A DNA stretch of 51,750 nt from Dehalococcoidia bacterium (lineage in GTDB: Bacteria > Chloroflexota > Dehalococcoidia > GIF9 > AB-539-J10), in the NCBI GenBank assembly GCA_030610855.1, contig JAUWQY010000009.1:1-51750 (forward strand), written 5' to 3'. Of this stretch, positions 34,281 through 51,316 are shown in pieces (position 1 is the stretch's first letter; each line of letters opens with the position of its first letter). The notes under the pieces were generated by a model, which saw nothing but the letters and a program-made list of their open reading frames with translations, ran no database searches and was not told where the DNA came from. The position numbers and the translations under genes were made by a program.

Positions 34281-36130
34281 CTCAACACCCTTTGATCGCC
34301 GACCCTGCGCGTTATCCTTTGGCCATCAAGGTGTTCCATCAGTGCTTTAGCGTATTTGCGGCTTGTCTGGAAAAGGTCACGCACTTCAGCCACGGTTATT
34401 GTTCCCTGGCTCTCGATGTGCTCGACAACCCGCTTCACCATCTCCTCGTAGGCTGAGGCAGTGAAGATAATCCCCTCATCTACCTTGACCACCTTTTTCT
34501 GCTCCAACAGCAGATTCAGTAGTTCAGGTTCCAAAGGCGAATCGGTAGGCGGGCAATAAGGGGATTCGGCCAGCATTCTCAGGAAAGCATCCACTCTGGT
34601 CTGTTGCGCTGGGGAGAGTCCAACACTATGCGAAGGAAGCCTCACCACTGCCCCCTCATCTGCAACGTTTCCATGTTCTGTGAGTTGTCGCACAATCCCG
34701 TTAAGGTGCTGGGGTTGTATCCTGAGGCGGCTCCTGAATTCCTCTCTGGGCATGCCCTGCCGGAGGGAGAATGAGGAATGATAGTCTTGCAGTAGCTTTG
34801 TTGCCTCCGCAACGAGATGCTTCCAGTAGCTGCAGGAAAAGAAGAGCTGACGCCCTTCGCCGCTGCTAACCAGCACTGCCTGCCCGGCTCTGGCTAGAGC
34901 TGCCAGCACCTTCCCGGTCTCCACTTCGGGAAGGCAACACTGAAGCGCAAGCTCCCTAACTTCAGATGTCCCCTTGGCCTCTAAGAGGGCAAGCACGGCA
35001 TCCTCGACTGTACCTTCTCTAGCCTTGAGGCTCTCTGTCACGGCAGCCTGATACCGACGGTGGCGCTTGGGGTGAGCGTCCACGATGTCGCCGCCGCCCA
35101 GTGTTCCCCTGGGAGAACGGATGACGAAAAGGTCGCCTTCTACTGCTGCTACTGCAAAAGTCAATCCTATCTGTGCCCAACCACTCTCGGTTGCGCTGAT
35201 TTTCTCTTTATCCAAGAGCCGGATTTTCCCAGCCACTTCACTGGCGCCCGTATGAAATGTGATAGACATATTGTGAGTTACGGGGCTGCTCAGGTCCGAC
35301 ACCGCTCGAAGCTTCACATCAAGCAACCGGGTCGGTTTGAGCCACCCTGGAGAGGCAATGACCATGCCGCGATCCAGCTCCTCAGACTGGATGCCGCCCA
35401 GGTTAATGGCCACGCGGCTGCCCGGAAGAACAAGGTCGGACCTATGCTTGTGAACCTCGATCCGCCTTACATGGGTTTCCAGCCCGGCCGGCAAGACTTC
35501 CACCTGCTGCCCAGTCCGGAGCGTACCATCAATCAGGGTCCCGGTGACTACAGTGCCGAAGCCCTTCATGGTGAAGATACGATCGATGGGAAGCCTGGGC
35601 CTGCCGATGTCCCTCCGCTGGAGGGTGTGATTCAGAAGATTATCAATTACTGCAGTCAACTCAGGCAGACCATCTCCAGTCACTGAAGAAACAGTCACGA
35701 TTGGCGCTTCAGCCAGAGTCGTGCCTTGTATCACCTCCTCAGCTTCCATGATGGCCAGGCCTAACCCTTCTTCATCAACGAGGTCCTTCTTGGTGATAAC
35801 CACGATGCCCTTCTTGATGTTGAGCAGGTCAATGATGGCCAGGTGCTCTCTGGTCTGAGGCATGACCCCTTCATCTGCGGCGATTACCAGCAGAGCCAGG
35901 TCGATTCCCCCCACTCCGGCCAGCATGTTTCTGACGAATTTCTCATGTCCGGGGACATCAACGATGCTGACTTCCTTTCCCCCGGGAAGCCGAAGCCACG
36001 CAAAGCCCAGGTCGATGGTCATCCCCCGCCTTTTCTCCTCGGGCAGACGGTCCGGGTCTATTCCTGTTAGGGCGCGAACAAGAACCGATTTCCCATGATC
36101 TACATGACCTGCGGTCCCCAGTACATACAT
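34277..36130 (-). CDS. selB: Selenocysteine-specific elongation factor SelB
   Basis: SelB delivers Sec-tRNA to UGA codons marked by a SECIS hairpin. The GTPase domain has G1 GHVDHGKS, G3 DVPGHEKF and G4 [10 protein letters not shown]-Tu-like domains 2 and 3 follow, and the C-terminal half consists of winged helices (for example [24 protein letters not shown]) that bind the SECIS RNA. Length (617) and order are standard. It is six bases downstream of selD and overlaps selA. Confidence 0.95.
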
Positions 36131-36136
36131 GGCGAT

Positions 36137-37180
36137 CTACGTTACTCTTATCTTGCCTTTGGGCTCTGCCACCACATGTCCGACGATAGTTGCATCATTG
36201 ATGCCCTCGTCATGCATTCTCCTGACCAGTACTTCTCCGTCTTTTGCCGGGAGCGAGATGAACAGGCCGCCGGAGGTCTGAGCATCAAAAAGAATCAGCA
36301 TCATCTCGTCAGATACGTGGGCCTCTATCATGTGGGCGCGAAATCCCCTGTTGCGGTGTGTTCCGCCGGGAACAAGTCCCCTCCTGACGTACTCCTCGAC
36401 CTTAGGCAGCAGTGGCACCGAGGGTGCATGTATTACCATGCCAACGTTAGCCCCTTGAATCATCCCGCAGGCGTGGCCGAGGAGACCGAAACCTGTAATG
36501 TCGGTGCAGGCATGCACCGTAACATCAAGCATCAGCTCTGACGCCCTCTTGTTCAGAGTAACCATCTGTTGAGTGAGCTGGGCCACAATTCCTTCCTCTG
36601 CGATGCCGGCCTTCATGGCCGTGCTTATGATGCCGCTCCCCAGAGGCTTAGTAAGCACCAGCACATCTCCTTCCACAGCTCCAGTCTTGGTTATCACTCT
36701 CTCAGGGTGGACTATGCCTATGACACAAAGCCCATACTTAAGCTCACGGTCGTCCACGCTGTGTCCCCCTACCAGCGACACCCCTGCCTCTGAGAGCTTG
36801 GCGATTCCTCCACGAAGGATTTCCCTCAGTATAGAGATATCCATGCTTTCTCTGGGAAAACAGACTACGTTCATCGCTGTGACAGGGCGACCACCCATAG
36901 CATAGACATCGCTCAGGGCATTGGCCGCAGCGACCTGTCCGAAGGTGTACGGATCATCAACTATAGGCGTGAAGTAATCAACGGTCTCGATAATAGCGAG
37001 ATCCTCCCTTAGCCGATATACCCCGGCATCGTCGCGTCCTTCCAGCCCGACGATCACATTCGGGTCAACAGGTAGCTCAAGCCCACAAAGTGCCCGGTCC
37101 AGGTCCCCTGGCCCCAACTTAGAGGCTCAACCTGCCCCTCGCACCGTTTCCGTCAACCGCAGATTAGGCTTGTTCTCCAT
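36137..37180 (-). CDS. selD: Selenide, water dikinase containing selenocysteine (UGA at codon 18)
   Basis: SelD makes selenophosphate from selenide and ATP. Reading from the ATG at 37180, which has GAAGGAGAG 6-7 nt upstream, the frame runs through an in-frame TGA at 37127-37129 into the conserved body. The local peptide reads TVRGAG-U-ASKLGPGDL, aligning with the catalytic Cys/Sec plus Lys segment of SelD, so the TGA encodes selenocysteine. A start after the TGA (TTG 37117) would remove the catalytic residue and is rejected. Downstream motifs include DDAGVYRL, DYFTPIVDDPYTFG, NALSDVYAMGG and GGHSVDD. The full product is 347 residues. A perfect TATAAT is on the minus strand at 37223-37228, with no clear -35. 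Confidence 0.93.
37096..37113 (-). promoter_or_regulatory. SECIS-like hairpin in selD mRNA
   Basis: Starting 13 nt after the UGA, GG-CCAGG pairs with CCTGG-A-CC (one bulged A) around the loop GGA. Position and size fit bacterial SECIS elements read by SelB, which lie within the coding sequence just after the UGA. Confidence 0.6.
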
Positions 37181-38003: not shown

Positions 38004-39341
38004 TGTCAAATCACAAAGAATCTAACTGAAGAATGATGATTCAGCCTGGTTAGTACTTTTAAAGGAGGTAAAACCGGGCTATGGAAAGGATGGACATGCA
38101 TTCAAGAAATGAATACCTGAGGCTATTAAGGGAAAGGTACCTCAAGGCCAAGGCCAGGAAAGAGAAGACGCAGCTCTTAGACGAGTACTGCCGTAATACC
38201 GGACAATCAAGGAAGTACGTCATCTGGAAGATACACAGGGCAGTTCTTAAACCGAGGCAAAGGAAGAAAAGGAAGGAGATATATGACGGTCAGGTCAAAG
38301 CTGCCCTGGCCAAGATATGGGAGATCTTCGACTATCCATGTGGGCAGAGGCTCAAGCCCCTATTAGAGACAGAGATAGAGAGACTAAGGGAGTTTGGGAA
38401 GGTTGAGATAACTGACGAGGTAGCTTTGAAACTTAAGACAATGAGTCCGGCAACAATTGATAGAAAGCTTAAGCACGAGAGAGAGTTCTTGCACCTTTTG
38501 AGAGCAAAAGGCGGACCCAAGGCAGGCTACCTTCTGAAGCAGAAGATTACATAAGGCTTACCGAGTGGGACACCTCACAGATTGGTTATGTGGAAGCAGA
38601 TTTAGTTGTTCATTGTGGCTCATCTACACTGGGAGAGTATATCAATACAGTGAGCAGCACAGATATTTCCTCCGGTTGGTGGGAAGGTGAAGCTATCATG
38701 GGGAAGTCTCAGGAGCATAGTTTTTGGGCTTTAAAGGAAATAAGAAAGAGGACTCCCTTTGAATGGAAAGGGTTGGACTCGGACAATGGCAGTGAGTTCA
38801 TCAACCAAATCTTGTACAAGTATTGCCGGCGGGAGGGGATTGAATTCACCGGGTCGCGGGCAACCAGGAAGAACGATAATGCCTATATTGAGGAAAAGAA
38901 CTGGATCCATGTGAGGAAGATATTTGGCTATCTAAGGTACGACAGCTATGAGGAGCTAGCTATAATGAACGATCTTTATCGTAACGAATTAAGGCTGCAC
39001 AAGAACTTTTCCCAGCCGGTGATGAAGTTACAGAGCAAAGAAAGAATAGGGGGCAAGGTGAAGAGAAGGTACGAAGTAGCGAAGACACCATACCAGAGGC
39101 TCATCGAGCCAAGCCAAATCCCCGAAGGGGTTGAAGAGGAACTCAAGGGAATATATCTGAGTCTGAATCCTGCCCAGCTGAAGAGGAGTATAGATGCCAA
39201 GCTAGCTAAGCTGTACCAGGCTTATGAGGAGAAAAAGAGAAGCCTATATGTCGATCCCCACGAGAAGCGAGTACCTCATATAGTTAGAAATTATATGATT
39301 CAACAATCCCCTGTTGGGTTAGGTACTTAAATGATTTGACA
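38004..39341 (+). mobile_element. Insertion sequence with 10-bp terminal inverted repeats
   Basis: TGTCAAATCA at 38004-38013 and its exact complement TGATTTGACA at 39332-39341 bound a 1338-bp element carrying one transposase region. Looser similarity (CTAAC) continues inside both ends. I see no obvious target-site duplication in the flanks. The element separates the selenocysteine locus from the hydrogenase locus and truncates a small minus-strand frame at its right end. A 65-bp piece of the same transposase is at 51686-51750. The IS family was not identified with certainty. Confidence 0.8.
38081..39330 (+). pseudogene. DDE (rve-type) transposase, frameshifted
   Basis: The first frame (38081-38554, AAAGGAGGT upstream) encodes a basic, helical DNA-binding half. 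The second (continuing to 39330) encodes the integrase-type catalytic core. Candidate catalytic residues are Asp in VEADLVVHCG, Asp in LDSDNGSEF and Glu in NAYIEEKNW. Near 38545-38556 the frame shifts: reading shifts to YIRLTEWDTSQIGYVEAD without interruption, so one base appears to be missing. This is either an inactivating mutation or a programmed frameshift; no clear slippery A-run is present, which favours inactivation. Confidence 0.75.
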
Positions 39342-39545: not shown

Positions 39546-40832
39546 CTATTTGAAGGATACTTGTAACAGGTGTGTAGAGCAGGAAATACAGGGGTCATAG
39601 GCTCTGACCAGCATCTCCAGAGTATGCCTGATCTCATCTTCAGGGCGACTGAGTATAAGAGGCACCAGAGTTTCCATATCCTTCTGGATGTTGTTATGGT
39701 TCTGGTTGGTGGGAATAACACAGTTGCCCTCAGTCAGTATTCCGTTCTCATCATAGGTGTAATCGTGGAACAGGATACCCCGGGGGGCTTCCACGGCGGC
39801 GATACCTCTACCTGCCCTGAACTTGGTTAGGTTATCCTCCTCTTCCAGTCCTCTAGCTAGCATCTGGTCGATAAGGTAAATGCTGTCCTCAACAGCGTGA
39901 AAGGTCTCGACGACTTGAGCCACAGTTATCATAAATGGGTTATGGCAGGGAGCATTCAGGCCGAGTTCTATGGCGGCTCTTTTGGCTCGAGGCAGGAGCT
40001 GGTCATGATTGATATTGAAGCGCGCCAGAGCCCCCACCATATAAGAATCCCGCTTGTTCTTTGTGTACTTGGCGGTGGAATGGGGGACACAGAACTCGTT
40101 AGTTACCTCAAGGTACTTATCCACAGGTACAAGACCCGCGTCGGTTGAGGCAATCTGACCACTGATAAAGGCATACTCTTTAGGGTCTTTCAGGGCAATA
40201 TACTCCGTTTCGCGATTAAAATCGGGAATTTTCAAGGTCTTGAACAGGTCCACCGTGATATCAAGGTCAGCCAGTGCATCCTCAAGTCTATTCCTAAGAG
40301 CTTCCAGTTCACTAAGCTTGGGTAGCTTGGCAAAGCCCCCAACCATGCAGGATAGCGGATGGGTCTTCCTGCCTGCCAGCGCCTCAGCCAGATTATAGGC
40401 CAGCTTCTTCAGACGTAGTGCCATCAGCACTACATCTTTATGCGTTTCTACCAAGGGGAAAACACTGCCTACTCCCAGGAAGTCCGGGGCAGCCAGGAAA
40501 AGGGCATGTAATACGTGGCTCTCCATTATTTCGGCGTTATAAAGAAGTTTGCGTAGGAGTAATGTCTGCTGTGATGGCTGGACACCGAAAGCAGCTTCGG
40601 TAGCCTGTATAGATGCCGTGGTGTGGGATATAGAGCAAATACCGCAGATCCGGGAGGCGATATGGGGGACGTCCTGATAGTTTCTGCCACGAAACATAGC
40701 TTCAAAAAATCGGGGTGATTCCGCAACCTCCCATATGAGTTCCTCAATCTTACCATCCGTGGCATTCAAAACAATGTTGCCGTGGCCCTCAACCCGAGTC
40801 ACCTGATGGACGCTAATATTTATCTTTTTCAT
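39546..40832 (-). CDS. hydA: [NiFe]-hydrogenase large (alpha) subunit, group 3 type
   Basis: This is the catalytic subunit binding the NiFe(CN)2CO centre. The two cysteine pairs are intact: RICGICSISH (Cys63, Cys66, His70) and DPCISCSTH (Cys415, Cys418, His421). Only seven residues follow His421 (LLQVSFK). This resembles the very short C-terminal extension of archaeal sulfhydrogenases, which is cleaved after cofactor insertion. Together with HydD, HydB and HydG modules this is a cytoplasmic, NAD(P)-linked group 3 (3b-like) enzyme. At 428 residues it is normal length for the group. It overlaps the small-subunit gene by four bases. Confidence 0.93.
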   Translation of the reverse strand: MKKINISVHQVTRVEGHGNIVLNATDGKIEELIWEVAESPRFFEAMFRGRNYQDVPHIASRICGICSISHTTASIQATEAAFGVQPSQQTLLLRKLLYNAEIMESHVLHALFLAAPDFLGVGSVFPLVETHKDVVLMALRLKKLAYNLAEALAGRKTHPLSCMVGGFAKLPKLSELEALRNRLEDALADLDITVDLFKTLKIPDFNRETEYIALKDPKEYAFISGQIASTDAGLVPVDKYLEVTNEFCVPHSTAKYTKNKRDSYMVGALARFNINHDQLLPRAKRAAIELGLNAPCHNPFMITVAQVVETFHAVEDSIYLIDQMLARGLEEEDNLTKFRAGRGIAAVEAPRGILFHDYTYDENGILTEGNCVIPTNQNHNNIQKDMETLVPLILSRPEDEIRHTLEMLVRAYDPCISCSTHLLQVSFK

Positions 40833-41569
40833 TTGGTCACCTCAGCATATGTATTGTAAATCTTAAACTTCTCAACCGCCTGTTCTACCGTCAACCCATA
40901 CTTCTTAAGTATATCCTTCTCTGAGTCAATGTTGGGGTCATCAACCAAGCCACGGCAGCCCCAACAGTGTCGACCGCTGTTGACGCATATAGCATCGCAG
41001 CCAGCCCTAGTTACCGGACCTAGACAGGTCATGCCTCTTTCAAAGACACAGACATTGCCTGCCATCTTGCACTCTACACATACAGGGTGGTTGGGTATAT
41101 CCGGTTCCTTGCCCAATAGAAGCGCCTTGATTACCTTGAGAAGCTCGGCGGTAATCGGAGGACAGCCTCGTACATAGTAGTCTACCGAAACGACCGCATC
41201 TACAGGGCGGGCTGGAATGGTATCGTAATATTTGGCGTCCTTCCCGTAGACTATCTTCAAGGCTTCTTCCATGGGTAGGTGATTCTTCAGGCAGTTGATT
41301 CCGCCAATACAGGCGCAGGCGCCTAAGGCGACAAGGACTTTCGCCTGTTCCCGTATCTTTTGCAGCCGTGGTATCTCCGACTCCCTGCTTATGCTCCCTT
41401 CAATGAAGGCAATATCGTAGTCATCTTCCCTCTCCGTCTTGACCTCTCTGAAGTTGACAATGTCCACCGCGCTAAGCAAATCAATAAGCTCTTCTCCGTC
41501 AAGATTGAGCACATCTAACTGACATCCTTCACAACCAGTAAAATCAAAGAACGCTACTTTAGGTTTCAT
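40829..41569 (-). CDS. hydD: [NiFe]-hydrogenase small (delta) subunit
   Basis: This subunit carries the iron-sulfur clusters that relay electrons from the NiFe site. Cysteine motifs are FTGCEGCQLDVLN (proximal cluster start), GACACIGGINCLKN and VRGCPP. A C-terminal segment is rich in Cys (CVECKMAGNVCVFERG, CLGP, CDAIC, CWGC), indicating additional clusters. ATG 41569 is chosen because MKPKVAFFDFTGC is the family N-terminus and it overlaps the preceding stop as TAATG; a start 36 codons upstream is rejected. At 246 residues it matches group 3 small subunits. Confidence 0.92.
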   Translation of the reverse strand: MKPKVAFFDFTGCEGCQLDVLNLDGEELIDLLSAVDIVNFREVKTEREDDYDIAFIEGSISRESEIPRLQKIREQAKVLVALGACACIGGINCLKNHLPMEEALKIVYGKDAKYYDTIPARPVDAVVSVDYYVRGCPPITAELLKVIKALLLGKEPDIPNHPVCVECKMAGNVCVFERGMTCLGPVTRAGCDAICVNSGRHCWGCRGLVDDPNIDSEKDILKKYGLTVEQAVEKFKIYNTYAEVTK

Positions 41570-43896
41570 TATACTGCCTCCCTTAGATTTCTCAGTTGGG
41601 CCAGGGTAAATACCGGTCCCTCCTGGCATACATAGACACCATTGATCTGACAGTGTCCACACTTGCCCACCCCACACTTCATCCTTCTCTCCAGTGACAG
41701 GATTATGTTCTCATCGGGAAGGTCTCTCTTCTTGAGTTGCCCGATGACAAAGCGGTACATTATGGGTGGCCCTACCACCACTGCCATGGTCTTCCTGGGA
41801 TCAATATCGACCTTCGGGATAAGGGTAGTAATAACCCCTACATTCCCCATCCAGCTCTCATCTCCTCTATCCACTGTCTCGTGAAATTCGATTTCTGGGC
41901 TCTTACTCCAGGCAGCAAGCTCGTCCAGGAATAACCGCTCTGCGGGCGACCTGGCTCCAAAAAGCAGGATGGCTCTACCAAAAGAGCTCCGGCGGTCAAG
42001 GACATACTGAACCAGCGAACGCATCGGGACGAGACCAATGCCTCCAGCTATGAAGAGAATGTCCTTGCCTTCAAGAGCCTCTAGTGGGAAGCCATTCCCG
42101 AAAGGACCGCGAATGCCCACCATGGCTCCCTTTTTCAGATTGTGCAGAGCGTTGGTCACATCGCCTACTTTTCTTACCGCCAGTTGGAAAGTCCCGTCCC
42201 TAGTTGGTGATGATGAGACGGAGACGGGTGCTTCCCCAATACCCATAACTGAGACCTCGACGAATTGTCCCGGTCGGTGCCCCAGGGCTTTACCGTCCTT
42301 GAGACTGAACTCAAAGACTTTCTCCCTTTCAGTCAACTCCTCGACCTTCACTAGTTCAGCAAGCCGAGGTGCGTACAATTCAATCTCCGGCCTCACTTCT
42401 CTGAAAATGCGCATGGCTGCTTCTTTGGCCTGGACCGATTCCACTATGGCGTTAAACGCCTCCAGCGGGCTTGCAATCTCAGCCAGGCAGGCGGTAGCAC
42501 ACCGACCACAGCCCACACAGCCAAATCTACCATATCTCTCCAGAATGTATTTCCCCTTACGAAATATCCGATGCCGAAGCCGGCTGGCTTTGTCATGCCG
42601 GAAATTTTCACCGGTGGCTACCTTGGCAAAATCAATCAGCACGCAGCCATCCCATTGCCGTAACCGCTGCCCGTCTTTCAGGTTCAGCGATACATTGTCT
42701 TTGACATCAAAGCAAAAACAGGTGGGACATACCATAACGCAGGAGCCGCAGCTAAGGCAGCTCTCGCTTCTTGATTCCCAATATGGGTCATCGTAGCTCT
42801 CTTCCAACAGCTTCGGCAACCTTTCCTTGGGTATATCAAGGGAGAGCTTATATTTAGCCAATGCCCCGTCTCGAACCGCTTTCTGTTTAGCTATCTCATC
42901 GCCAGTGGGTTCTCTTAGCTGGGCATGCTTTGCTAGGAGGTCGGCGCCCTTTTCTGAGCCTACGCTTACCATGTAGTCAGCGCCAATATTTGTTAGCAGT
43001 AGGTCAAAGCCAGTTTCAGTTAGGTGAGTATCCATGCTGGGGGCAAAGGATTTGGGAGACGGATTAAGGCAATCAACCCCGATGACGATGGTATTCTGCC
43101 GCCGGGCAATGTAGTTAGGGTCGGGATTGGTAGTCATAAACACATCATCCAGTAGCTCGATAGCCTTAATATCGTAAGGGTGTATGCCGATTATAGCTCT
43201 AGGGATGGCTTCGATCACCGGCTCAACCTTTGGCTCGTCCCCGATCTTGAACTTAAGCAGGGTTTCCCTTGCCGGCAGGAGATACTTAGTTGGTGGCGTA
43301 ACGGCAACATCATAATCAAGGTGGAGTTCCTCAAAGCTAGCTATTCTATCGTAAACATACTTGCCATGCCTAGACTTGACCCCAACTATCTCCATGTCTT
43401 TAGCCAGACTTTCCACCATGGATTTCAGACCTTCTTTAGTGATGACCAAGGACTTCTTAACCGCAACTACTTCTACAACAGGAGGTTTAGGTCGTATTTC
43501 CACCTCAGTAGTAACCGTCCGTTCCCGCCCTGCCGAATCAAGGGTTTCCCGGACAAGCCTTTCCAGGTCATCACGGGCAATCGGCCTGACTAGATAATGA
43601 ACAGCGCCAAGCTTCTTTGCCTCGACCGTTGTTTCTGCTGAAGGATAAGCAGTCATGATAATAGACTTAATCCACGGCCGTTGTGCCTTCACCTGCTTCA
43701 GCACCGCTATCCCGGCTTGCCCCGGCAACCCTATATCCAGAACCATAACGTTGAAGTCTTGTTTCTTTATCAGCTCCAGGGCTTCCTCGCCGCTTTCAGC
43801 TGTCGCCACCTGATAACCAGCATCTTTCAGCCAGTCCCTGATTGACTCACGCACAATGGGCTCGTCATCTACAACCAGAACTGAGTTCTCTTCCAT
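41569..43896 (-). CDS. Receiver domain-HydB-HydG fusion: hydrogenase electron-transfer subunit with CheY-like N-terminus
   Basis: The 775-residue protein has three parts. Residues 1-120 are a CheY-like receiver with acidic pair Asp10/Asp11, phosphoacceptor Asp54 (MVLDIGLPG) and Thr82, but Arg104 replaces the conserved Lys (YLVRPI). Residues about 145-490 are the HydB beta subunit of group 3b hydrogenase, with two 4Fe-4S sites at Cys380, 383, 386, 390 and Cys460, 463, 466, 470. Residues about 505-775 are the HydG gamma module: FAD motif RPGQFVEVSV, NAD motif AGGIGLVP and a terminal 2Fe-2S-type site (MKCGVGKCGHC). HydB and HydG are normally separate genes without a receiver. GGAGG precedes the ATG by about 9 nt. 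The receiver could let phosphorylation tune electron transfer to NAD(P); that is inference. Confidence 0.9.
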   Translation of the reverse strand: MEENSVLVVDDEPIVRESIRDWLKDAGYQVATAESGEEALELIKKQDFNVMVLDIGLPGQAGIAVLKQVKAQRPWIKSIIMTAYPSAETTVEAKKLGAVHYLVRPIARDDLERLVRETLDSAGRERTVTTEVEIRPKPPVVEVVAVKKSLVITKEGLKSMVESLAKDMEIVGVKSRHGKYVYDRIASFEELHLDYDVAVTPPTKYLLPARETLLKFKIGDEPKVEPVIEAIPRAIIGIHPYDIKAIELLDDVFMTTNPDPNYIARRQNTIVIGVDCLNPSPKSFAPSMDTHLTETGFDLLLTNIGADYMVSVGSEKGADLLAKHAQLREPTGDEIAKQKAVRDGALAKYKLSLDIPKERLPKLLEESYDDPYWESRSESCLSCGSCVMVCPTCFCFDVKDNVSLNLKDGQRLRQWDGCVLIDFAKVATGENFRHDKASRLRHRIFRKGKYILERYGRFGCVGCGRCATACLAEIASPLEAFNAIVESVQAKEAAMRIFREVRPEIELYAPRLAELVKVEELTEREKVFEFSLKDGKALGHRPGQFVEVSVMGIGEAPVSVSSSPTRDGTFQLAVRKVGDVTNALHNLKKGAMVGIRGPFGNGFPLEALEGKDILFIAGGIGLVPMRSLVQYVLDRRSSFGRAILLFGARSPAERLFLDELAAWSKSPEIEFHETVDRGDESWMGNVGVITTLIPKVDIDPRKTMAVVVGPPIMYRFVIGQLKKRDLPDENIILSLERRMKCGVGKCGHCQINGVYVCQEGPVFTLAQLRNLREAV

Positions 43897-43908: not shown

Positions 43909-44100
43909 CTATTCTTGGCTTTCGCATTTAAGAAGCGTTTCTCGTATCAGCTCTAGGGCTTCCTCACCGCTTTCGGCTGTCGCTACCTGGTAACCAGCCT
44001 TCTTAAGCCGGTCCCTAATTGACTCCCGCACGATTGGCTCATCATCTACAATTAAAACGGTTTGTTGGTCATGTTTTCTAATCCTTACAACGCTACACAA
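43909..44100 (-). pseudogene. Truncated duplicate of the receiver domain
   Basis: This 63-codon frame contains VLIVDDEPIVRESIRDRL and YQVATAESGEEALELI, nearly identical to residues 6-43 of the adjacent fusion, then leaves the receiver fold with an unrelated 13-residue tail and stops. It lacks the phosphoacceptor Asp and everything after it. DNA similarity is high, so this is a partial tandem duplication of the 5' end of the fusion gene or of a shared ancestor. Its stop is 9 bases before the fusion's start codon. A functional receiver is excluded. Confidence 0.7.
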
Positions 44101-44197: not shown

Positions 44198-44665
44198 CTA
44201 TGCATTGGAATGCTCACTCAGCTCTTGACAAACGATTCTAACACAATTAGGGATTGCCTGCCTTGCTGCGGCTGTACACTTTTCACTGAAGGAATGTGCA
44301 TCTCCGACCTCGATGGCAAAGATGACAATCTGTCGCGGCAAAGCCAAACCGAGTCTCCTGCCAAGCTCAATAGCGATGACAAAGTCGAGGTCGTGTGACG
44401 TGTTGGCGTATCCGTTGGTATCAAATGCCTCGAGTTCGAGACGATAAATCTGGCCGGTCTTCCCTTCCATAGTGTGAATGGCATCGATAATAACAGCTCT
44501 ATCGTATCCAGCCAACAACTCCAAGCAGTCCATACCAGTCCCACTTGCCTCTATCACTGTTATATCTAGCTTGTTAAGCTTGTCTCGCAAAGCTCTGACG
44601 GCGTGGAGACCTACACTGTCGTCACCACGCATCGGATTGCCCATGCCCAATATTATCGTCCTCAC
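44198..44665 (-). CDS. Hydrogenase maturation protease
   Basis: This nickel-dependent endopeptidase of the HyaD/HycI/HoxW type trims the C-terminus of the large subunit once NiFe is in place. Motifs are LGMGNPMRGDDSVGLHA (first metal ligand region), VIIDAIHT and TSHDLDF with the conserved His. I prefer the GTG at 44665 (VRTIILGMGN, with GAGG about 11 nt upstream), which matches family length; the frame is open to 44731, so a longer N-terminus is possible. It would act on the short seven-residue tail of HydA. Confidence 0.85.
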   Translation of the reverse strand: MRTIILGMGNPMRGDDSVGLHAVRALRDKLNKLDITVIEASGTGMDCLELLAGYDRAVIIDAIHTMEGKTGQIYRLELEAFDTNGYANTSHDLDFVIAIELGRRLGLALPRQIVIFAIEVGDAHSFSEKCTAAARQAIPNCVRIVCQELSEHSNA

Positions 44666-44899
44666 CTTACCTATTATCCTCAAAGGCTTTTTCAAAACCA
44701 TCGCCACGGCCAGAGATAACCATAAGCCCATTTACTACAAGAGTTCTCTACCTTCAGTGGGAAATGAACCTCTGTCTGCTTTGAGTCCCAGATTCCCACA
44801 GCGAATAGCGATAAGGGTTAGGGAGGCTAGAGCTTGCCTTGCATTGAATATAGTGGACTGCATATTGCATCGCCCACTGTCAATAGCATAATCTTCTAG

Positions 44900-45510
44900 C
44901 TATGGCTTGTCCTTACGGAAAAAGCGTAAGGTTCCATAGCGGCAAGACTTTTCGCCGCCAGACAATTGCTTAAGCTCTTTCACCTTGTCTTCACTGAGAA
45001 AGAGGTATGTGTCGTGCCTATCCATCACCGCTGCTTCGAGAGGGCATGAGGAACATTCATAGTTACGCCTGCAAAGTCCATAAGGGCCGGCACCGAGCGT
45101 CAGCCAGAGGTGTTTATCGTATACTTTTCCCCCTTCTAATTCCTCTAGGGCCTTACCTATTATCCTCTCCAAGTCCGGAACCGTGAAAGGCTTAGGTAGG
45201 AAGTCGAGCACACCTAAACTCTTAGCCTTCTCGTACGTTTCTTCTGACGAATAGGCTGTAATGATCACTCCCTTTGTCTCCGGTTTGAGCGCCTTCGCCT
45301 GCTCGAATACTTGCAGGCCATCAATGCCTGGTAGCCTTAAATCAAGAACAATAAAAGCGAAGTCCTCATTTTTGATTCTCTCTAAGGTACCTCTCCAGTC
45401 TCAGTGCACTCTACCTCGTATCCGTCCTCCATAAGCCATTCCCCCGGGCTTTCCCTCACTCATTCGTGATCTTCTACAATCAGAATCTTCTTTTTCTTCG
45501 GCTCCATCAT
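44900..45510 (-). pseudogene. Response regulator with Cys-rich C-terminal domain, broken by a stop and a frameshift
   Basis: A good ribosome binding site (AAAGGAGG, 6 nt before the ATG at 45510) starts KKKKILIVEDHE, then an in-frame TGA (45460-45462), VRESPGEWLMEDGYEVECTETGE, and a one-base loss near 45384-45392. After the shift the frame gives RIKNEDFAFIVLDLRLPGIDG, VIITAYSSEE and FLPKPFTVPDLERII, completing a receiver with Asp and Lys intact. A C-terminal domain follows: HLWLTLGAGPYGLCRRNYEC, then SSCPLEAAV and a terminal LRFFRKDKP. Two independent lesions make it a pseudogene. The Cys-rich tail resembles one seen in other anaerobes but has no function I can name. Confidence 0.8.
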
Positions 45511-45523
45511 TTCTTGCCTCCTT

Positions 45524-46050
45524 TCACAATATCCTGACATTAGCTGCTCCTGAAGCCATAAGACCAGCTATGATACCGGTTCACAAGTTACCCAAGTTCA
45601 CGCTGACGGCTGCCCGAATTTCGCCTTTTGCTGTTTCAATCGAAACAAAAGCCTTCGATATGATCTAGACTACCTGCTCTACCACACTGAGTATTCGTCA
45701 CCATTTGCCTTGTGCCAATCCTACATTTATCCAGGTTTCGAGATGCTCGCCCAAATCTCCAACCCATGACTCTATCTTCTCAAGATTCCCATTAGCCAAA
45801 GCTGCTCTGGCTTCCTAAGTTGCTTCAACTGGACGCCGAGTGGCTAGGAGATCGTGCGAACCTATCTTCCCGACCTCCATGCTCACTGAGGGTGAGAAGA
45901 GCTTGCGTCACCTAGGGCTCCTAACGAATTCGACTTCTACATCACCCTCTGGGTATAAGCCTCAACACTGCGCCGAGGTCTCCTGCCCCGAAGGTCATGC
46001 TCTGGAATATCGTGTGCTAAAACAACACATTCTAGCTTGTCAAACCTCAT
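45524..46050 (-). pseudogene. DUF4926-like gene with multiple nonsense codons and frameshifts
   Basis: From the ATG at 46050 the sequence reads FDKLECVVLAHDIPEHDLR, then after frame changes AGDLGAVLR and LYPEGDVEVEFVRSPR. These segments fit a DUF4926 domain. The same last frame runs on as MEVGKIGSHDLLATRRPVEA, EARAALANGNLEKIESWVGD, LGEHLETWINVGLAQGKW and IISKAFVSIETAKGEIRAAV, interrupted by TGA, TAG, TGA, TAG and TGA codons, and ends at 45524-45526. Peptide sense is well preserved between lesions, so the decay is recent. It lies between hypE and the response-regulator relic in the same orientation and was probably part of the hydrogenase operon. Confidence 0.65.
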
Positions 46051-46141
46051 CGTAGTCCTCTAGGATAGTCAGTAACAAACCTTAGGAATACCCTCCCCTT
46101 TAAGTATTGTAACCAAGATGGTTACAATTTGCACTGTTTGA

Positions 46142-47188
46142 CTAACATATGCGAGGTAGCATGTCGCCCGTGAGCATATCAACTATTCTAGTGCCGCCAA
46201 CTCTTGTTCTCATTATAACCCTCCCCTTGGGGCCGGACAGCACCTCGCCGATAATGGTAGCCTCATGGCCGTAACGTGCCTTCCGCATTACTTGCACCAT
46301 CCTTTCGGCGTCCTCAGGTGCAACACAGGCAACCAGTTTGCCTTCGTTAGCCACATAAAGGGGATCGTAGCCTAGTATCTCACAAGCGGCAGCTACCTCC
46401 TCACGGATAGGAATTTGTTCCTCTAAAATGCAGATACCGGCCTTCGACTGCCGGGCAATCTCATTTAGTGTGGTGGCAAGACCGCCTCGGGTAGGGTCAC
46501 GCATGGCATGAACCTTATGGCTTGTCCTTAGCATGGCGTCTACCATATGGTTGAGAGGGGCAACATCGCTCTTAAAGCTGTTGCTGAAAGTTAAGCCCTC
46601 CCTTGCGGAGAGGACAGCGATACCATGGTCACCGATGGTGCCTGACACTATAACCATGTCTCCTGGTTGGGCATTGCTACCTGAGATTTTCACTTCTCCA
46701 GAGAGCAAACCTACACCGGCAGTATTGATAAAGAGACCATCAGCGCTACCCTTCTCAACTACTTTAGTATCACCAGCCACAATCTTTACCCTAGCCTCCT
46801 TTGCTGCCCTCTGCATTGAGGTCACAATTCTGCGTAGGGTTGAAATCGGGAGTCCTTCTTCTATGACGAAGGCAGCCGATAAATACAAAGGAGTAGCACC
46901 GACCATAGCCAAATCGTTGACAGTGCCACAGACCGCCAGCCTGCCAATGTCCCCTCCCGGCCAGGAGAGGGGGTTCACTACATATGAATCGGTGGTAAAG
47001 GCTATCTCATCTTCAGATAGCTGTCGCCTTTTAGAAATCCTATCGCTGTCTGTTAAGGGAAAGACGGCAGAGTCATCGCCGGCTTGCAGAATAGGATTGA
47101 TAAATCGAGGCATAAACAATGACTCAATTAAGTCGTGGCTGAGCTTGCCGCCACTGCCGTGGCCCAGGATTATTCTGGCCTTTCGCAT
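46142..47188 (-). CDS. hypE: Hydrogenase maturation factor HypE
   Basis: HypE dehydrates the carbamoyl group received from HypF on its C-terminal cysteine to a thiocyanate, the source of the CN ligands. The N-terminus has GHGSGGKLSHDLI and GDDSAVFPL, the ATP-binding region of the PurM/SelD-like fold has KIVAGDTKVVEKG, and the chain ends MLPRIC with the required terminal Cys. Length (348) is normal. It begins 4 nt after hypD. Confidence 0.96.
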   Translation of the reverse strand: MRKARIILGHGSGGKLSHDLIESLFMPRFINPILQAGDDSAVFPLTDSDRISKRRQLSEDEIAFTTDSYVVNPLSWPGGDIGRLAVCGTVNDLAMVGATPLYLSAAFVIEEGLPISTLRRIVTSMQRAAKEARVKIVAGDTKVVEKGSADGLFINTAGVGLLSGEVKISGSNAQPGDMVIVSGTIGDHGIAVLSAREGLTFSNSFKSDVAPLNHMVDAMLRTSHKVHAMRDPTRGGLATTLNEIARQSKAGICILEEQIPIREEVAAACEILGYDPLYVANEGKLVACVAPEDAERMVQVMRKARYGHEATIIGEVLSGPKGRVIMRTRVGGTRIVDMLTGDMLPRIC

Positions 47189-47192
47189 AACC

Positions 47193-48341
47193 TTACTCCT
47201 TCAATGTAACTGGTTTGTTGTTCGCCTGGGGTTCTCCTGTTTGTGAGAGAGCCTCACCTTCCTCCTCATAAAGATACCAGACAGAGCAAGTTCCCTCGGT
47301 TGAAACCATACACGGACCTACCGGATGTTCAGGGGTACAGGCTTTAGCGAAAAGGCCACACTCGTGAGGTGTAGATACACCACGTAGTATGTCCCCGCAG
47401 CAGCAGCCCGCCGCTTCCTTCGGAGGCCTGGTAACGATTTTAAAGGCACAGTCGGCATCGACCCGTTCGTACCGTTGACCTAACTTCAAACCGCTTTTAG
47501 GGATGATGCCGATTCCCCGCCAGCGAGCATCGGTAACATCAAAGACGGTACTCAGATACTTGAGGGCTATGGGATTTCCCTCTTTGCGAACGGCGCGACG
47601 GTATTGAATGTCCACTCGTGGTTCTTCAGCGCTGATCTGTTCCAATAGCATATCAATCGCTTGCAGTATGTCTAACGGTTCAAAGCCAGCAATAACACAG
47701 GGGATGCCATATTCTCGGGGAATGAATTCATATGGCTGTGAGCCGATAATAGTGCTCACATGCCCGGGACAAATAAAGCCGTCGATATGTACCTCATCGG
47801 AATCAAGCAGAGCCCTCATGGCTGGTGGGATCAATTTATGGACAGAAAGAAAGAAGAAGTTGTCAATCCCCAGTCGCTCTGCCTCAAGGATGGCGCTAGC
47901 TGTAGTTGGGGATGTCGTTTCAAAACCAACGCCAAGAAAGACCACTGATTTACGGGAATTATTTTCGGCAATCTTCAGGGCATCTAGAATGGAATAGACC
48001 ACTCTAATGTCAGCGCCGACAGCCTTAACTTGGGAAAGGCTGGAATAACTTCCTGGCACTTTCATCATATCACCGAAGGTGGTTAGGATCACTTGGGCAT
48101 TTTTAGCGAGAGCGATAGCTTTATCAATGTCAGCGTTAGGGGTTACACACACCGGACAGCCGGGACCGGAAAGCAGGTTGATCTTTTCTGGCAAGATTTG
48201 GCGGATGCCATGCTTAAAAATGGCGACGGTATGGGTACCACACACCTCCATTAGATTGGTCGGGCGCACCTTCTTTTCTTGTATTCTCAGCGCAAGGCCT
48301 CGACCTGCGGCAGAGTTACGAAACTCGTCAATAAATCTCAC
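47193..48341 (-). CDS. hypD: Hydrogenase maturation factor HypD
   Basis: HypD is the iron-sulfur scaffold on which Fe(CN)2CO is assembled with HypC. Conserved motifs are LMEVCGTHTVAIFKHG, GPGCPVCVTP, GFETTSPTTA and the 4Fe-4S region CCCGDILRG with CGLFAKACTPEHPVGPCMVS. At 382 residues it is of normal length. It lies between hypC and hypE on the same strand with short gaps. Confidence 0.96.
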   Translation of the reverse strand: MRFIDEFRNSAAGRGLALRIQEKKVRPTNLMEVCGTHTVAIFKHGIRQILPEKINLLSGPGCPVCVTPNADIDKAIALAKNAQVILTTFGDMMKVPGSYSSLSQVKAVGADIRVVYSILDALKIAENNSRKSVVFLGVGFETTSPTTASAILEAERLGIDNFFFLSVHKLIPPAMRALLDSDEVHIDGFICPGHVSTIIGSQPYEFIPREYGIPCVIAGFEPLDILQAIDMLLEQISAEEPRVDIQYRRAVRKEGNPIALKYLSTVFDVTDARWRGIGIIPKSGLKLGQRYERVDADCAFKIVTRPPKEAAGCCCGDILRGVSTPHECGLFAKACTPEHPVGPCMVSTEGTCSVWYLYEEEGEALSQTGEPQANNKPVTLKE

Positions 48342-48367
48342 CCGGTTTCACCTCGGACAGATCTGGG

Positions 48368-48592
48368 TTAATCGCCCATCCCTTCAGCAATCTCCTCAAA
48401 GAGGCGTATTGTTTCCTCTGCCTCCTTCTCATCCAGCTTCTGAATAGCAAACCCAGCGTGCAAGAGGACATAATCGCCCACCTGGACATCAGGCACAAGC
48501 ATTATGCTTGCCTGGCGGGCGAGCCCACCGACCTCTACTAATGCCTCTAGACTATCTATTTGTAATACTCTAACCGGTACCGCTAAGCACAT
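48368..48592 (-). CDS. hypC: Hydrogenase maturation chaperone HypC
   Basis: HypC carries the Fe(CN)2CO unit from HypD to the large subunit. It starts MCLAVPVRVLQID with the essential Cys2, and has the beta-barrel segments VEVGGLARQASIMLVPDV and VGDYVLLHAGFAI. At 74 residues it is normal. Its first 23 nt overlap the 3' end of hypF, indicating coupled translation. Confidence 0.95.
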   Translation of the reverse strand: MCLAVPVRVLQIDSLEALVEVGGLARQASIMLVPDVQVGDYVLLHAGFAIQKLDEKEAEETIRLFEEIAEGMGD

Positions 48593-51032
48593 GGGTACTC
48601 CCCCTTCTTAACTTGGGACTGGTAACTTTTGCGTTGGCAATCACCGCTTGACCCAAAGCAATGCCTCCATCGTTACAGGGTACCTGGTGATGAATATACG
48701 GTGTAAAGCCCTTCCTCCGCAGATGACCCAGAGTTCGTTTAAGGAGGTAAATATTCTGAAACACACCTCCACTGAGTGCCACTTTGCTTAGACCCTCTTG
48801 CTCCCGAATCAGACAGCAGACCACAGAGACCATCTCGGCCACGGCATTATGGAATTTGGCAGAAATAGTAGCGCTGGGAACTCCAGCTTTTAAATCGTGA
48901 ATGATACTGCAAAGGAGAGGCTCCTGGTCAATAACAACAGGAAGCTTACCTCTTGGCAGGGGCCAATAATATCCCTCTTTAATGCTCTTATCGGCAAGCA
49001 TTTCCAGTTCAATCGCCGCTTGTCCCTCGTAGGTGATGACATCACATACACCTAACAGAGAAGAAACGCCATCAAAAAGCCGACCGCAGCTAGAGGTGAG
49101 GGGAGAGTTAAGCCTTCCCTCAATCTGTCTTCTGACAATCTCAAGTTCCACGGGGTCTATCCGGTCAAACAGGGTAAGGTCGCTGGTCAGATTGCGTGGA
49201 AGATTATACAGATAGCTGATAGCCATGCGATACGGCTTTCTAATTGATGCCTCACCACCGGGCAGCACCACATAGTTCAAGTGAGCACGACGCTCAAAAT
49301 GCTGAAAATCACAAACTAGAAACTCGCCACCCCAGATTCGCCCATCCTCTCCATAGCCGGTTCCATCAAAGGCAACGCCTATTACCGGCTCCTGCACTCC
49401 ATTCTCTGCTAGGCAACTGGCAATGTGGGCGTGATGGTGCTGTACAGGCACAAATTGCGCTCCTCTAGGCAATTGCTCAGCACTGTTGCGTCTTAATTCG
49501 AGGGCATACTTCGTAGAGAGATATTCAGGATGGAGGTCATAAGCAATCACCTCTGGCAAGACCCGGAAAAGCCTCTTAAAGTGTTCTATCCCTGATTCAA
49601 AGGAGCTTAGGGTCTCTAGATTTTCCATATCGCCAATGTGCTGGCTAAGGAAGGCATAATTTTCCTTGGTAATACAAAAGGTGTTTTTTAACTCAGCTCC
49701 GCAAGCGAGCACCGGTCTCATTTCGAAGTCAAGTCTCACTGGGAAGGGGGCGTAGCTCCGTGAACGCCGAATAATAGCCTCTTTACCTTCGAATACCCTG
49801 GTTACCGTGTCATCGCAACGAATGTGGATATCACGGTCATGTAGCAGGAAAACGTCGGCTAGCATCCTAAGACGCTCCAGTGCTTCCTCATTACCTATGG
49901 TGATGGGCTCCTCGCTCATATTGCCGCTAGTCATAACCAGCGCTAGATTATCCGTCTCGTCTCCTCTTCTCTCCAGAAGCAGATAATGCAGAGGTGTGTA
50001 AGGTAGCATGACGCCTAGGTAGGAGTTATTGGGAGCGACCAAAGCTGAGATAGGTGATTCTCCTTTATGGCGCAACAGCACAATGGGTCGCTGCGGCGAC
50101 TCCAGAAGCTGCCTCTCAGCATCACTGACATGGCAATACCTTTCTACTGCCTGACAATCAAGAGACATGATGGCGAATGGCTTGTTCACCCGGCCCTTTC
50201 GCTCCCGTAGAAGAGATATCGCTTTGCTGTTGGTAGCATCGTAGGCTAAGTGAAAGCCACCGAGCCCTTTTACGGCGACAATGGCACCTCGACTAAGTAA
50301 GTGACGTGCCATCATGAAAGCTTCCTCACCCTCAGCGAGGCTGTCGCCTACGGCCTCCCCGTTAACCAGCCACACCCGGGGGCCACAAGTCGGGCAGGCG
50401 TTAGGCTGAGCATGAAAGCGACGGTCACTCGGGTTGTGATATTCCTCTTCACAGCTAGGGCACATCTTAAATGCCGCCATCGTGGTCTTTGGCCTATCGT
50501 AGGGAATATCTTTAATGATGGTAAAACGGGGTCCACAATTAGTGCAGTTAATGAAGGGATAGCGATAACGCCGGTCTAAGGGGTCGAAAAGCTCCCTGAG
50601 ACAATCCGGACAAATACAAATGTCGGGCGAGATTAATACGAACTTGTCTTCCTGCTCCTGGCTAGCTTGAATAATGAAGGACTGGTAGCCGACAGGAGGC
50701 AGAAGACTGCTCTCAATCCGTTCGATTACTGCTAAGGGTGGTGCCTTGAGTGTGATATCCGCAATAAATTCCTCTAACCTATTTGTGAGGCCTTCAACTT
50801 CTATGACCACTCCGCCGGTAGAGTTGAGCACCCAACCTTTCAGTTCGTGGTCATTGGCAAGGCGGTAGACAAAAGGTCGGAAACCAACGCCTTGCACTAT
50901 ACCCCGCACGATAATCCTGGCTCTGATCGGCTCAACGCCTACCGCCTCTGCCCGGCACGTTATGACAGGTGAACCTATCTCTCCCCTCTCAACAGCACGC
51001 CCCGCCAAATTTCCCCAGGTTGCTCGCTTCAT
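48570..51032 (-). CDS. hypF: Carbamoyltransferase HypF
   Basis: HypF uses carbamoyl phosphate and ATP to carbamoylate HypE. Domains in order: acylphosphatase (IIVRGIVQGVGFRPFVYRLA, near residue 40); two zinc-finger units (CPDC...CTNC and CPSC...CPTC, about residues 145-225); YrdC-like domain (AVKGLGGFHLAYDA, KPFAIM); and a Kae1-like domain (VQHHHAHIASCLAENG, GVAFDGTGYGEDGRIWGG, KVALSGGVFQN). It has 820 residues; the N-terminal 35 residues before the acylphosphatase are longer than usual, so the true start may be slightly internal. It begins 8 nt after the hypA-like gene. Confidence 0.96.
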   Translation of the reverse strand: MKRATWGNLAGRAVERGEIGSPVITCRAEAVGVEPIRARIIVRGIVQGVGFRPFVYRLANDHELKGWVLNSTGGVVIEVEGLTNRLEEFIADITLKAPPLAVIERIESSLLPPVGYQSFIIQASQEQEDKFVLISPDICICPDCLRELFDPLDRRYRYPFINCTNCGPRFTIIKDIPYDRPKTTMAAFKMCPSCEEEYHNPSDRRFHAQPNACPTCGPRVWLVNGEAVGDSLAEGEEAFMMARHLLSRGAIVAVKGLGGFHLAYDATNSKAISLLRERKGRVNKPFAIMSLDCQAVERYCHVSDAERQLLESPQRPIVLLRHKGESPISALVAPNNSYLGVMLPYTPLHYLLLERRGDETDNLALVMTSGNMSEEPITIGNEEALERLRMLADVFLLHDRDIHIRCDDTVTRVFEGKEAIIRRSRSYAPFPVRLDFEMRPVLACGAELKNTFCITKENYAFLSQHIGDMENLETLSSFESGIEHFKRLFRVLPEVIAYDLHPEYLSTKYALELRRNSAEQLPRGAQFVPVQHHHAHIASCLAENGVQEPVIGVAFDGTGYGEDGRIWGGEFLVCDFQHFERRAHLNYVVLPGGEASIRKPYRMAISYLYNLPRNLTSDLTLFDRIDPVELEIVRRQIEGRLNSPLTSSCGRLFDGVSSLLGVCDVITYEGQAAIELEMLADKSIKEGYYWPLPRGKLPVVIDQEPLLCSIIHDLKAGVPSATISAKFHNAVAEMVSVVCCLIREQEGLSKVALSGGVFQNIYLLKRTLGHLRRKGFTPYIHHQVPCNDGGIALGQAVIANAKVTSPKLRRGSTHVLSGTG

Positions 51033-51040
51033 AGAGGTAC

Positions 51041-51316
51041 TTACTCCCCTTCAAAAGATACCAGTGTCAAAGCATTCCCTGTTGAGGGCTCTATTTCCAA
51101 TACTGCTTCCCTGGCTATCGTTTTTTCACTTAGCAATTGAAAACAGAAGCGTAATGAGTCTTCGGTTATATGACTATCCTCACCTAATTCAACCTGAATC
51201 TTTGTTATCTTGCTGATTCGGGTCTCTTTCGCTTGGGTGCAAACCCGGTCCTCAGCGCTAAAGACAAACGTGGCTCTGCAATCCGAACGTTGGAGAGACT
51301 TATCCTGAAAGCTCAT
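51041..51316 (-). CDS. hypA: HypA-like protein lacking the nickel motif and zinc ribbon
   Basis: HypA delivers nickel to the hydrogenase large subunit. Residues 30-75 match HypA (SKITKIQVELGEDSHITEDS, then LRFCFQLLSEKTIAREAVLE). Two essential parts are absent. The N-terminus should be MHE... with the nickel-binding His2 but reads MSFQDKSLQRS. The zinc domain with two CxxC motifs should follow LEIE, but the chain jumps to PSTGNALTLVSFEGE and stops at 91 residues instead of about 115. Upstream AAAAAAGGAGGT is a strong ribosome binding site, so it is still likely translated. HypB is not in the window. It probably cannot handle nickel normally; annotating it as a pseudogene would also be defensible. 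Confidence 0.75.
   Translation of the reverse strand: MSFQDKSLQRSDCRATFVFSAEDRVCTQAKETRISKITKIQVELGEDSHITEDSLRFCFQLLSEKTIAREAVLEIEPSTGNALTLVSFEGE

Follow-up and report, generated by a model that had tools for sequence, protein, structure and literature searches.

A broken receiver and four-cysteine response regulator gene in a Dehalococcoidia hydrogenase locus, and the gene neighborhoods of its intact relatives

The hydrogenase locus of a Dehalococcoidia bacterium, on contig G000:C14 of a 1.63 Mb draft genome in 76 contigs, includes a stretch at 44900-45510 that resembles a two-component response regulator and that no single reading frame spans. This raises the questions of what the gene encoded, whether it is truly dead, and what its counterparts might do where they are intact. 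We addressed these using the 51,750 nucleotides of this contig that were analysed (hereafter the window), together with searches of related genomes. The explanation that we consider probable is that the stretch is a pseudogene, inactivated recently, from a conserved family of short response regulators, here called RR-C for their receiver and four-cysteine tail, and that the signalling branch of this hydrogenase locus has been lost. This degree of confidence applies to the explanation as a whole, i.e. the pseudogene, the mode of action proposed below for RR-C proteins in relatives, and the loss of signalling at this locus.

The gene can be read from either of two ATG codons, at 45510 and 45507, downstream of a ribosome binding site (Table 1). 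From 45507 the frame yields MEPKKKKILIVEDHE, meets the TGA, and continues as VRESPGEWLMEDGYEVECTETGE up to 45391; homology resumes in a second frame at 45388 and runs to a stop at 44902-44900 as TLERIKNEDFAFIVLDLRLPG...KPF...CRRNYECSSC...CRYGTLRFFRKDKP. A TBLASTN search with an intact homologue (L034) recovers the same two pieces, the first in frame -1 (45507-45391; 77%) and the second in frame -3 (from 45388; 52%). These pieces abut with two bases in place of the expected codon, which indicates a net deletion of one base. The second half on its own matches seven intact homologues from six other genomes (E = 2.8e-60 to 2.2e-49), and is recognised as a receiver by PF00072 (57.7 bits against a cut-off of 30.2). 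The receiver active-site residues are accordingly split between frames, with the acidic ED pair in the first piece and the aspartate (IVLDLRLPG) and lysine (PKPF) in the second. The receiver is followed by the tail typical of the family, W-x3-G ... C-x5-C-x2-C ... C, with four of the four cysteines present. A sequence-only reading of this DNA had described a response regulator broken by a TGA and a one-base deletion, with the receiver Asp and Lys visible after the shift and a strong ribosome binding site retained, and all of this is borne out by the two-frame homology and by both lesions as read. The 80-residue CRRNYECSSC domain that it proposed is a real Cys-rich output part, but one that measures about 73 residues and has four conserved cysteines, extending beyond CRRNYECSSC.

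Table 1. Features of the hydrogenase locus and of the broken RR-C gene, in window coordinates
Feature	Position	Strand	Basis or remark
[NiFe] large subunit, sulfhydrogenase HydA type (3b-like)	39546-40832	minus	NCBIfam models
[NiFe] delta/small subunit, HydD type (3b-like)	40829-41677	minus	NCBIfam models
Receiver fused to HydB- and HydG-like subunits, 775 aa	41569..43896	minus	family models and alignment
Remnant receiver, first ~40 residues and C-terminal end	43909..44100	minus	middle (Asp, Lys) gone in frame
Hydrogenase maturation protease, HycI/TIGR00072 family	44198..44731	minus	family models
Pseudogene of short receiver and four-Cys-tail response regulator (RR-C)	44900..45510	minus	homology in two frames, lesions read directly
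Cys-rich tail, all four short-form cysteines kept (C-x5-C-x2-C-x33-C)	44903..45118	minus	alignment and profile match (8.4e-33, the profile's nine rows including this tail itself)
One-base frame slip, receiver residues 39/41	45388..45391	minus	ends of TBLASTN segments and alignment
In-frame TGA, codon 16 from ATG 45507	45460..45462	minus	sequence; V/L in ten intact homologues
GGAGG ribosome binding site, retained	45517..45521	minus	sequence
Decayed coding remnant, 4 stops, upstream of RR-C	45527..45868	minus	~46 residues like the C-terminal end of relatives' ORFs
HypE, HypD, HypC, HypF, HypA, open	46142..51316	minus	named by eye; HypC/D/E/F match relatives' ORFs

As the source is a draft metagenome in many contigs, the TGA and the slip might be artefacts of assembly or sequencing within a living gene. 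We regard this as improbable: the two lesions lie within about 75 bases of each other, against 27 other window genes that are open (a comparison biased by those genes having been chosen for openness), a deleted receiver and decayed DNA lie around them between 43.9 and 46.1 kb, and divergence of the window copy is unusually high away from the lesions as well.

The selenocysteine genes of the window, a cluster at 32898-37117 comprising SelB and SelD, which match their models, and a SelA-like ORF upstream of them (by eye), meant that recoding of the TGA also needed consideration. That a full-length protein might arise by selenocysteine insertion at the TGA and programmed frameshifting at the slip strikes us as exceedingly improbable. 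TGA terminates 10 of the 27 listed window genes and is thus an ordinary stop here, and the aligned codon specifies Val or Leu, never Cys, in the ten intact homologues. Downstream of it no SECIS-like fold was found, RNA folding being no better than in shuffled sequences (z = 1.49 and 0.41); by eye no slippery sequence stands out where the frame shifts, and two separate recodings would be needed in one short gene. A selenoprotein identity for RR-C was rejected on the same grounds, namely Val/Leu instead of Cys in the homologues and the lack of a stable downstream element. We therefore continue with the gene as a pseudogene.

Homologues of this protein in other genomes have one of two architectures. 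The short form consists of a receiver and about 73 residues bearing W-x3-G, C-x5-C-x2-C and a fourth cysteine 33 residues on (eight sequences aligned), and the receivers of the aligned intact members are complete, with Asp, Thr and Lys. The long form (342-424 aa) has a TPR-like stretch between its receiver and a double tail; across 15 double tails, of which receiver proteins supply 13, eight invariant cysteines make up two C-x12-C-x5-C-x2-C units. The source genome has an intact long form of its own (359 aa) on contig G000:C11. No model for the tail was found in Pfam or among the NCBIfam matches listed, and in a profile search of the PDB the best match had E = 0.18. In two AlphaFold predictions the receiver is folded and most of the tail has a pLDDT below 50. 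RR-C thus pairs a familiar kind of protein with an output module that no Pfam or NCBIfam model covers, the pseudogene itself being ordinary; a literature search, to which subscription papers were largely out of reach, yielded no description that we recognised of this four-Cys domain. From the conservation of the cysteines one might guess at metal or redox sensing. Adrenodoxin-type [2Fe-2S] ferredoxins have a cysteine spacing resembling C-x5-C-x2-C-x33-C. We dropped this reading of the tail because of the E-value of that best PDB match and because the 'fourth' cysteine of the long form opens the second C-x12-C-x5-C-x2-C repeat. Related modules also occur in other settings: the protein at 9196-10641 of L063 joins a double Cys module with a TPR-like stretch and a histidine kinase (HisKA/HATPase), and in the one at 3184-4464 of L061, a Planctomycetota MAG, ferredoxin-type domains and a GcvH-like domain flank a related Cys motif.

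A search of 60 genomes, i.e. the source genome and 59 relatives, recovered seven full-length RR-C homologues in six of them (G056, G040 with two, G045, G033, G047 and G049). With the tail profile, 44 pattern matches were obtained on genome contigs and reduce to 21 loci, nine of which (L044-L052) carry the short form; with L032 (G040) and L112 (G747), the short form (~205 aa) was read in 11 other genomes. Going by length and content, some of these are the same contigs under two handles (L047 and G033, L048/L049 and G047/G049, L052 and G665). As G047 and G049 share the same RR-C protein and near-identical flanks, the 11 genomes perhaps represent 10 independent cases; the L046 copy lacks its start because the contig ends there, and L064, with 19 aligned residues, was excluded from the homologue counts. 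In a class-wide scan, nine of 393 sampled genomes have the short form besides the broken copy (counting full-length rows). The tail profile matches 20 of 84 genomes of the order and 4 of 400 genomes sampled across the phylum, the source genome being included in both counts. None of 19 genus mates has the short form, and eight of the 19 have the tail in an open frame of 356-434 aa. The tail matched nothing in a plasmid collection, and the named records that carry it are mostly Dehalococcoidia MAGs. One of the short-form contigs (L052; JAUVYB010000008.1) is titled Deltaproteobacteria in GenBank; a contig of 64,582 bases that bears the same genes is part of G665, which is listed in the window's class.

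We compared neighboring genes in 15 of the 21 tail-profile loci and also in L112 and L032, the latter read by eye, and found that two-component genes adjoin RR-C in all 11 homologue loci read. These fall into two kinds of neighborhood: 1) In seven of the 11 genomes (L044, L045, L047, L048, L049, L032 and L112) RR-C directly follows a histidine kinase gene, and six of these seven have HdrA- or HydB/HydG-like genes nearby. HydB- and HydG-like genes are present in five (L044, L045, L048, L049 and L032), four of which also contain HdrA-, MvhD- and FdhB-like genes, the L048 contig beginning just before HydB; L047 retains the end of HdrA, and in L112 only the kinase and RR-C matched the reference genes. 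2) In the remaining four (L046, L050, L051 and L052) RR-C occurs with an NtrC-type regulator and a receiver-TPR-Cys gene, and three of the four include RpoN. A full [FeFe]-hydrogenase-like sensor kinase is encoded in L050 and L051, and is replaced by a shorter kinase in L052; L046 is a short contig. The partner kinase in G033 (L047, 945-2207) is read as two ORFs of 150 and 256 aa, and may be split or short. The large (catalytic) [NiFe] subunit had no match in the stretches read of the Hdr/MvhD/HydBG loci. In G045 a small-subunit-like hydrogenase gene (L033, 14817-15806; 27% to that of the window) lies past HdrA on the other strand near the contig end, which makes a hydrogenase link possible there. 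A receiver gene stands beside it, also past HdrA on that strand. The neighborhood survey that had been suggested from the sequence alone thus finds the Cys domain fused to receivers and beside kinases and hydrogenase- or Hdr-type genes, where the alternative would have been that it never occurs with them.

Against this conserved background the window copy has evolved faster. Its end branch is the longest in the tree (0.79 against a median of 0.16), which does not assign it to either the kinase-linked or the FeFe-linked form. It keeps 15 and changes 16 of the 31 tail positions that are invariant in ten intact homologues; when intact copies are left out in turn, nine of them lose 0-3 and the odd tandem copy G040b loses 9. 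For the receiver it keeps 38 of 45 invariant positions (7 changed) and the intact copies lose 0-4, although in both counts copies with close kin in the set (e.g. G045 and G047) lose few by construction. The ratio of third to second codon-position changes in the receiver, 3.2-5.6 for the window copy and 3.5-6.3 in seven intact pairs, is selection-like. In the tail it is 1.45-2.45 against 1.9-9.0 in the seven intact pairs, so that codon-position selection tends to appear weaker in the window tail, with an overlap with the three intact pairs at 1.9-2.3. These patterns suggest that the tail drifted first, with its cysteines held, and that the receiver was lost recently. The four cysteines surviving in an otherwise drifted tail could reflect a function that had changed before the break rather than one that was dead. 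In G040 the RR-C genes are in tandem (L032, 9350-10763), and the divergence of the second one's tail may parallel the drift of the window copy.

The retained cysteines also bear on whether a shorter product is still used. A GTG at 45268 opens a frame to 44900 that would give a 122-residue protein, made up of the last part of the receiver followed by the Cys tail and acting as a Cys module on its own, and receiver-free Cys-module proteins do exist elsewhere (L060, 171 aa; L061, 179 aa, the latter encoded at 189-728 of the same Planctomycetota contig). We consider this unlikely, as this GTG falls inside the receiver fold, more than half of the tail invariants are gone and the tail shows weak codon-position bias. 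We thus return to the pseudogene and to the locus in which it lies.

The hydrogenase of this locus resembles the [NiFe] group 3b sulfhydrogenase HydBGDA in that the four subunit types (HydA/B/G/D) are matched by NCBIfam models in one operon. All four are below the NCBIfam equivalog cut-offs, and the 3b label reflects the subunit set. It differs in that HydB and HydG are fused together and to an N-terminal receiver, an arrangement shared by just one of the 13 loci read, that of G033, where identities are 69% for HydA and 76, 79 and 84% for the fusion receiver, HydB and HydG respectively. At E <= 1e-60 HydA is found in 16 of the 59 relatives searched and in none of the 19 genus mates; the loci were read in 13 of these 16, the other three (G025, G045 and G055) being partial matches. 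The contig nevertheless belongs to the lineage, given that its SelB, which at E <= 1e-60 is found in 12 of the 60 genomes with the source included, is 75% identical to that of the genus mate G014. Between the selenium and hydrogenase genes lies a transposase-like ORF pair (38081-39330; by eye), which possibly relates to how the hydrogenase block came or moved.

All three receivers of the locus are damaged, i.e. that of RR-C, the remnant that lacks its phospho-acceptor half, and that of the HydBG fusion, and the signalling input thus looks decayed; the hydrogenase and maturation genes remain open. The remnant is 85% identical over 115 bases of DNA to the fused receiver of the next gene. In that fused receiver the conserved lysine is replaced by arginine (AGG, 43587-43585), a change that may leave it partly active; the lysine is kept in the G033 fusion and in nine further receivers aligned across this site, including the dead RR-C. 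Among the TBLASTN matches listed there is no kinase between 36.0 and 51.75 kb, the rest of the window having been inspected by eye. Every one of the 11 homologue loci has an adjacent kinase or receiver-TPR-Cys gene, and neither was found beside the window copy. The gap at 45510-46142 was considered as a place for a kinase remnant, with none among the TBLASTN matches listed, and for a DUF4926-like remnant that inspection by eye had suggested, which we dropped as its four pieces matched no family and the one weak match (E = 0.106) lay on another contig. Within the source genome the partner kinase of G033 is matched most closely, at 57% over 241 aa, by the kinase of the [FeFe]-sensor protein on contig 11, with five others at 29-40%; this kinase lies two genes from the intact long form. 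The signalling branch looks abandoned at the hydrogenase locus, with the contig-11 system still open. That this locus was under two-component control, as had been read from the sequence alone, stands in part: a receiver-type regulator is broken here and its homologues lie by kinases and Hdr/hydrogenase-type genes, but no receiver was found near the hydrogenase in the fetched stretch of 12 of the 13 relatives' loci (several cut by contig ends), so that such input is not a general feature of this hydrogenase.

What RR-C proteins might do where they are intact can be approached through known systems. They resemble single-domain and enzyme-linked response regulators (CheY-like, with non-DNA-binding output) in their complete receiver, in lacking a recognised DNA-binding domain, and in having a kinase gene directly upstream in seven of the 11 genomes; they differ in their output, a four-Cys module not represented by a model in Pfam or NCBIfam. 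The [FeFe] hydrogenases of group C1 are histidine-kinase-linked putative H2 sensors, whose role is given as undetermined in the table of the HydDB paper (PMC5037454). The contig-11 protein is like these in combining Fe_hyd_lg_C, HisKA and HATPase domains, an assignment by domains, and such a protein adjoins both the receiver-TPR-Cys protein on contig 11 and RR-C in L050 and L051 (homologues at 58-59%).

In the living relatives, therefore, gene adjacency and complete receiver active sites suggest that the neighboring kinase, either a membrane GAF-PAS kinase or that of the [FeFe]-hydrogenase-like H2 sensor, most likely phosphorylates the RR-C receiver. The Cys module of the phosphorylated protein would then pass on the signal by protein contact, perhaps as a metal- or thiol-bearing protein-binding module whose targets are partner regulators or electron-transfer enzymes of the Hdr/HydBG type. 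Action by contact is suggested by the gene neighborhood and by the output domain, for which no DNA-binding family was found outside the receiver in Pfam or among the NCBIfam matches listed; any control of the locus need thus not be transcriptional. That RR-C instead regulated transcription of the hydrogenase operon in the usual way, through a zinc-ribbon-like Cys module that binds DNA, would fit the C-x2-C pairs, which are frequent in zinc modules, and the NtrC and RpoN genes next to RR-C in some loci. We nonetheless judge it improbable, as no such DNA-binding family was matched, and as the presence of the module in the L063 kinase and in the L061 ferredoxin/GcvH-like protein fits a redox or protein-contact role better. 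Following on from the contact model, the route would have been dismantled at the window locus, with RR-C dead, the neighboring receiver halved, the lysine of the fused receiver changed, no kinase found in the hydrogenase part of the window, and the hydrogenase kept.

A more general conjecture, which we offer tentatively and consider unlikely to hold, is that in Dehalococcoidia two-component phosphorelays act directly on electron-transfer enzymes instead of genes, with the Cys module as a plug-in for docking or electron gating and the window as a case in which the hydrogenase persists as its control branch is taken apart. Several arrangements were considered in this regard. Besides the HydBG fusion, receivers are fused to GltD/HdrA-like flavoproteins in three genomes (L108 9523-11742, L109 5656-7878 and L110 9413-11635), directly after HydD/HydA-like genes (28-30%) and with hyp genes further on, their receiver lysine being kept; in the genus mate G005 a NuoF/HndC-like subunit (by eye) has a C-terminal receiver (L041, 5945-8230). 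RR-C genes, for their part, stand at the end of Hdr/HydBG operons.

If the neighborhoods are a true guide, RR-C would couple the sensing of H2 or redox state to hydrogenases or electron-bifurcating enzymes with no transcriptional step, and would then represent a new output module open to direct expression and assay. The pseudogene, together with the two other damaged receivers, would mark the loss of signalling input from the hydrogenase locus of this organism.
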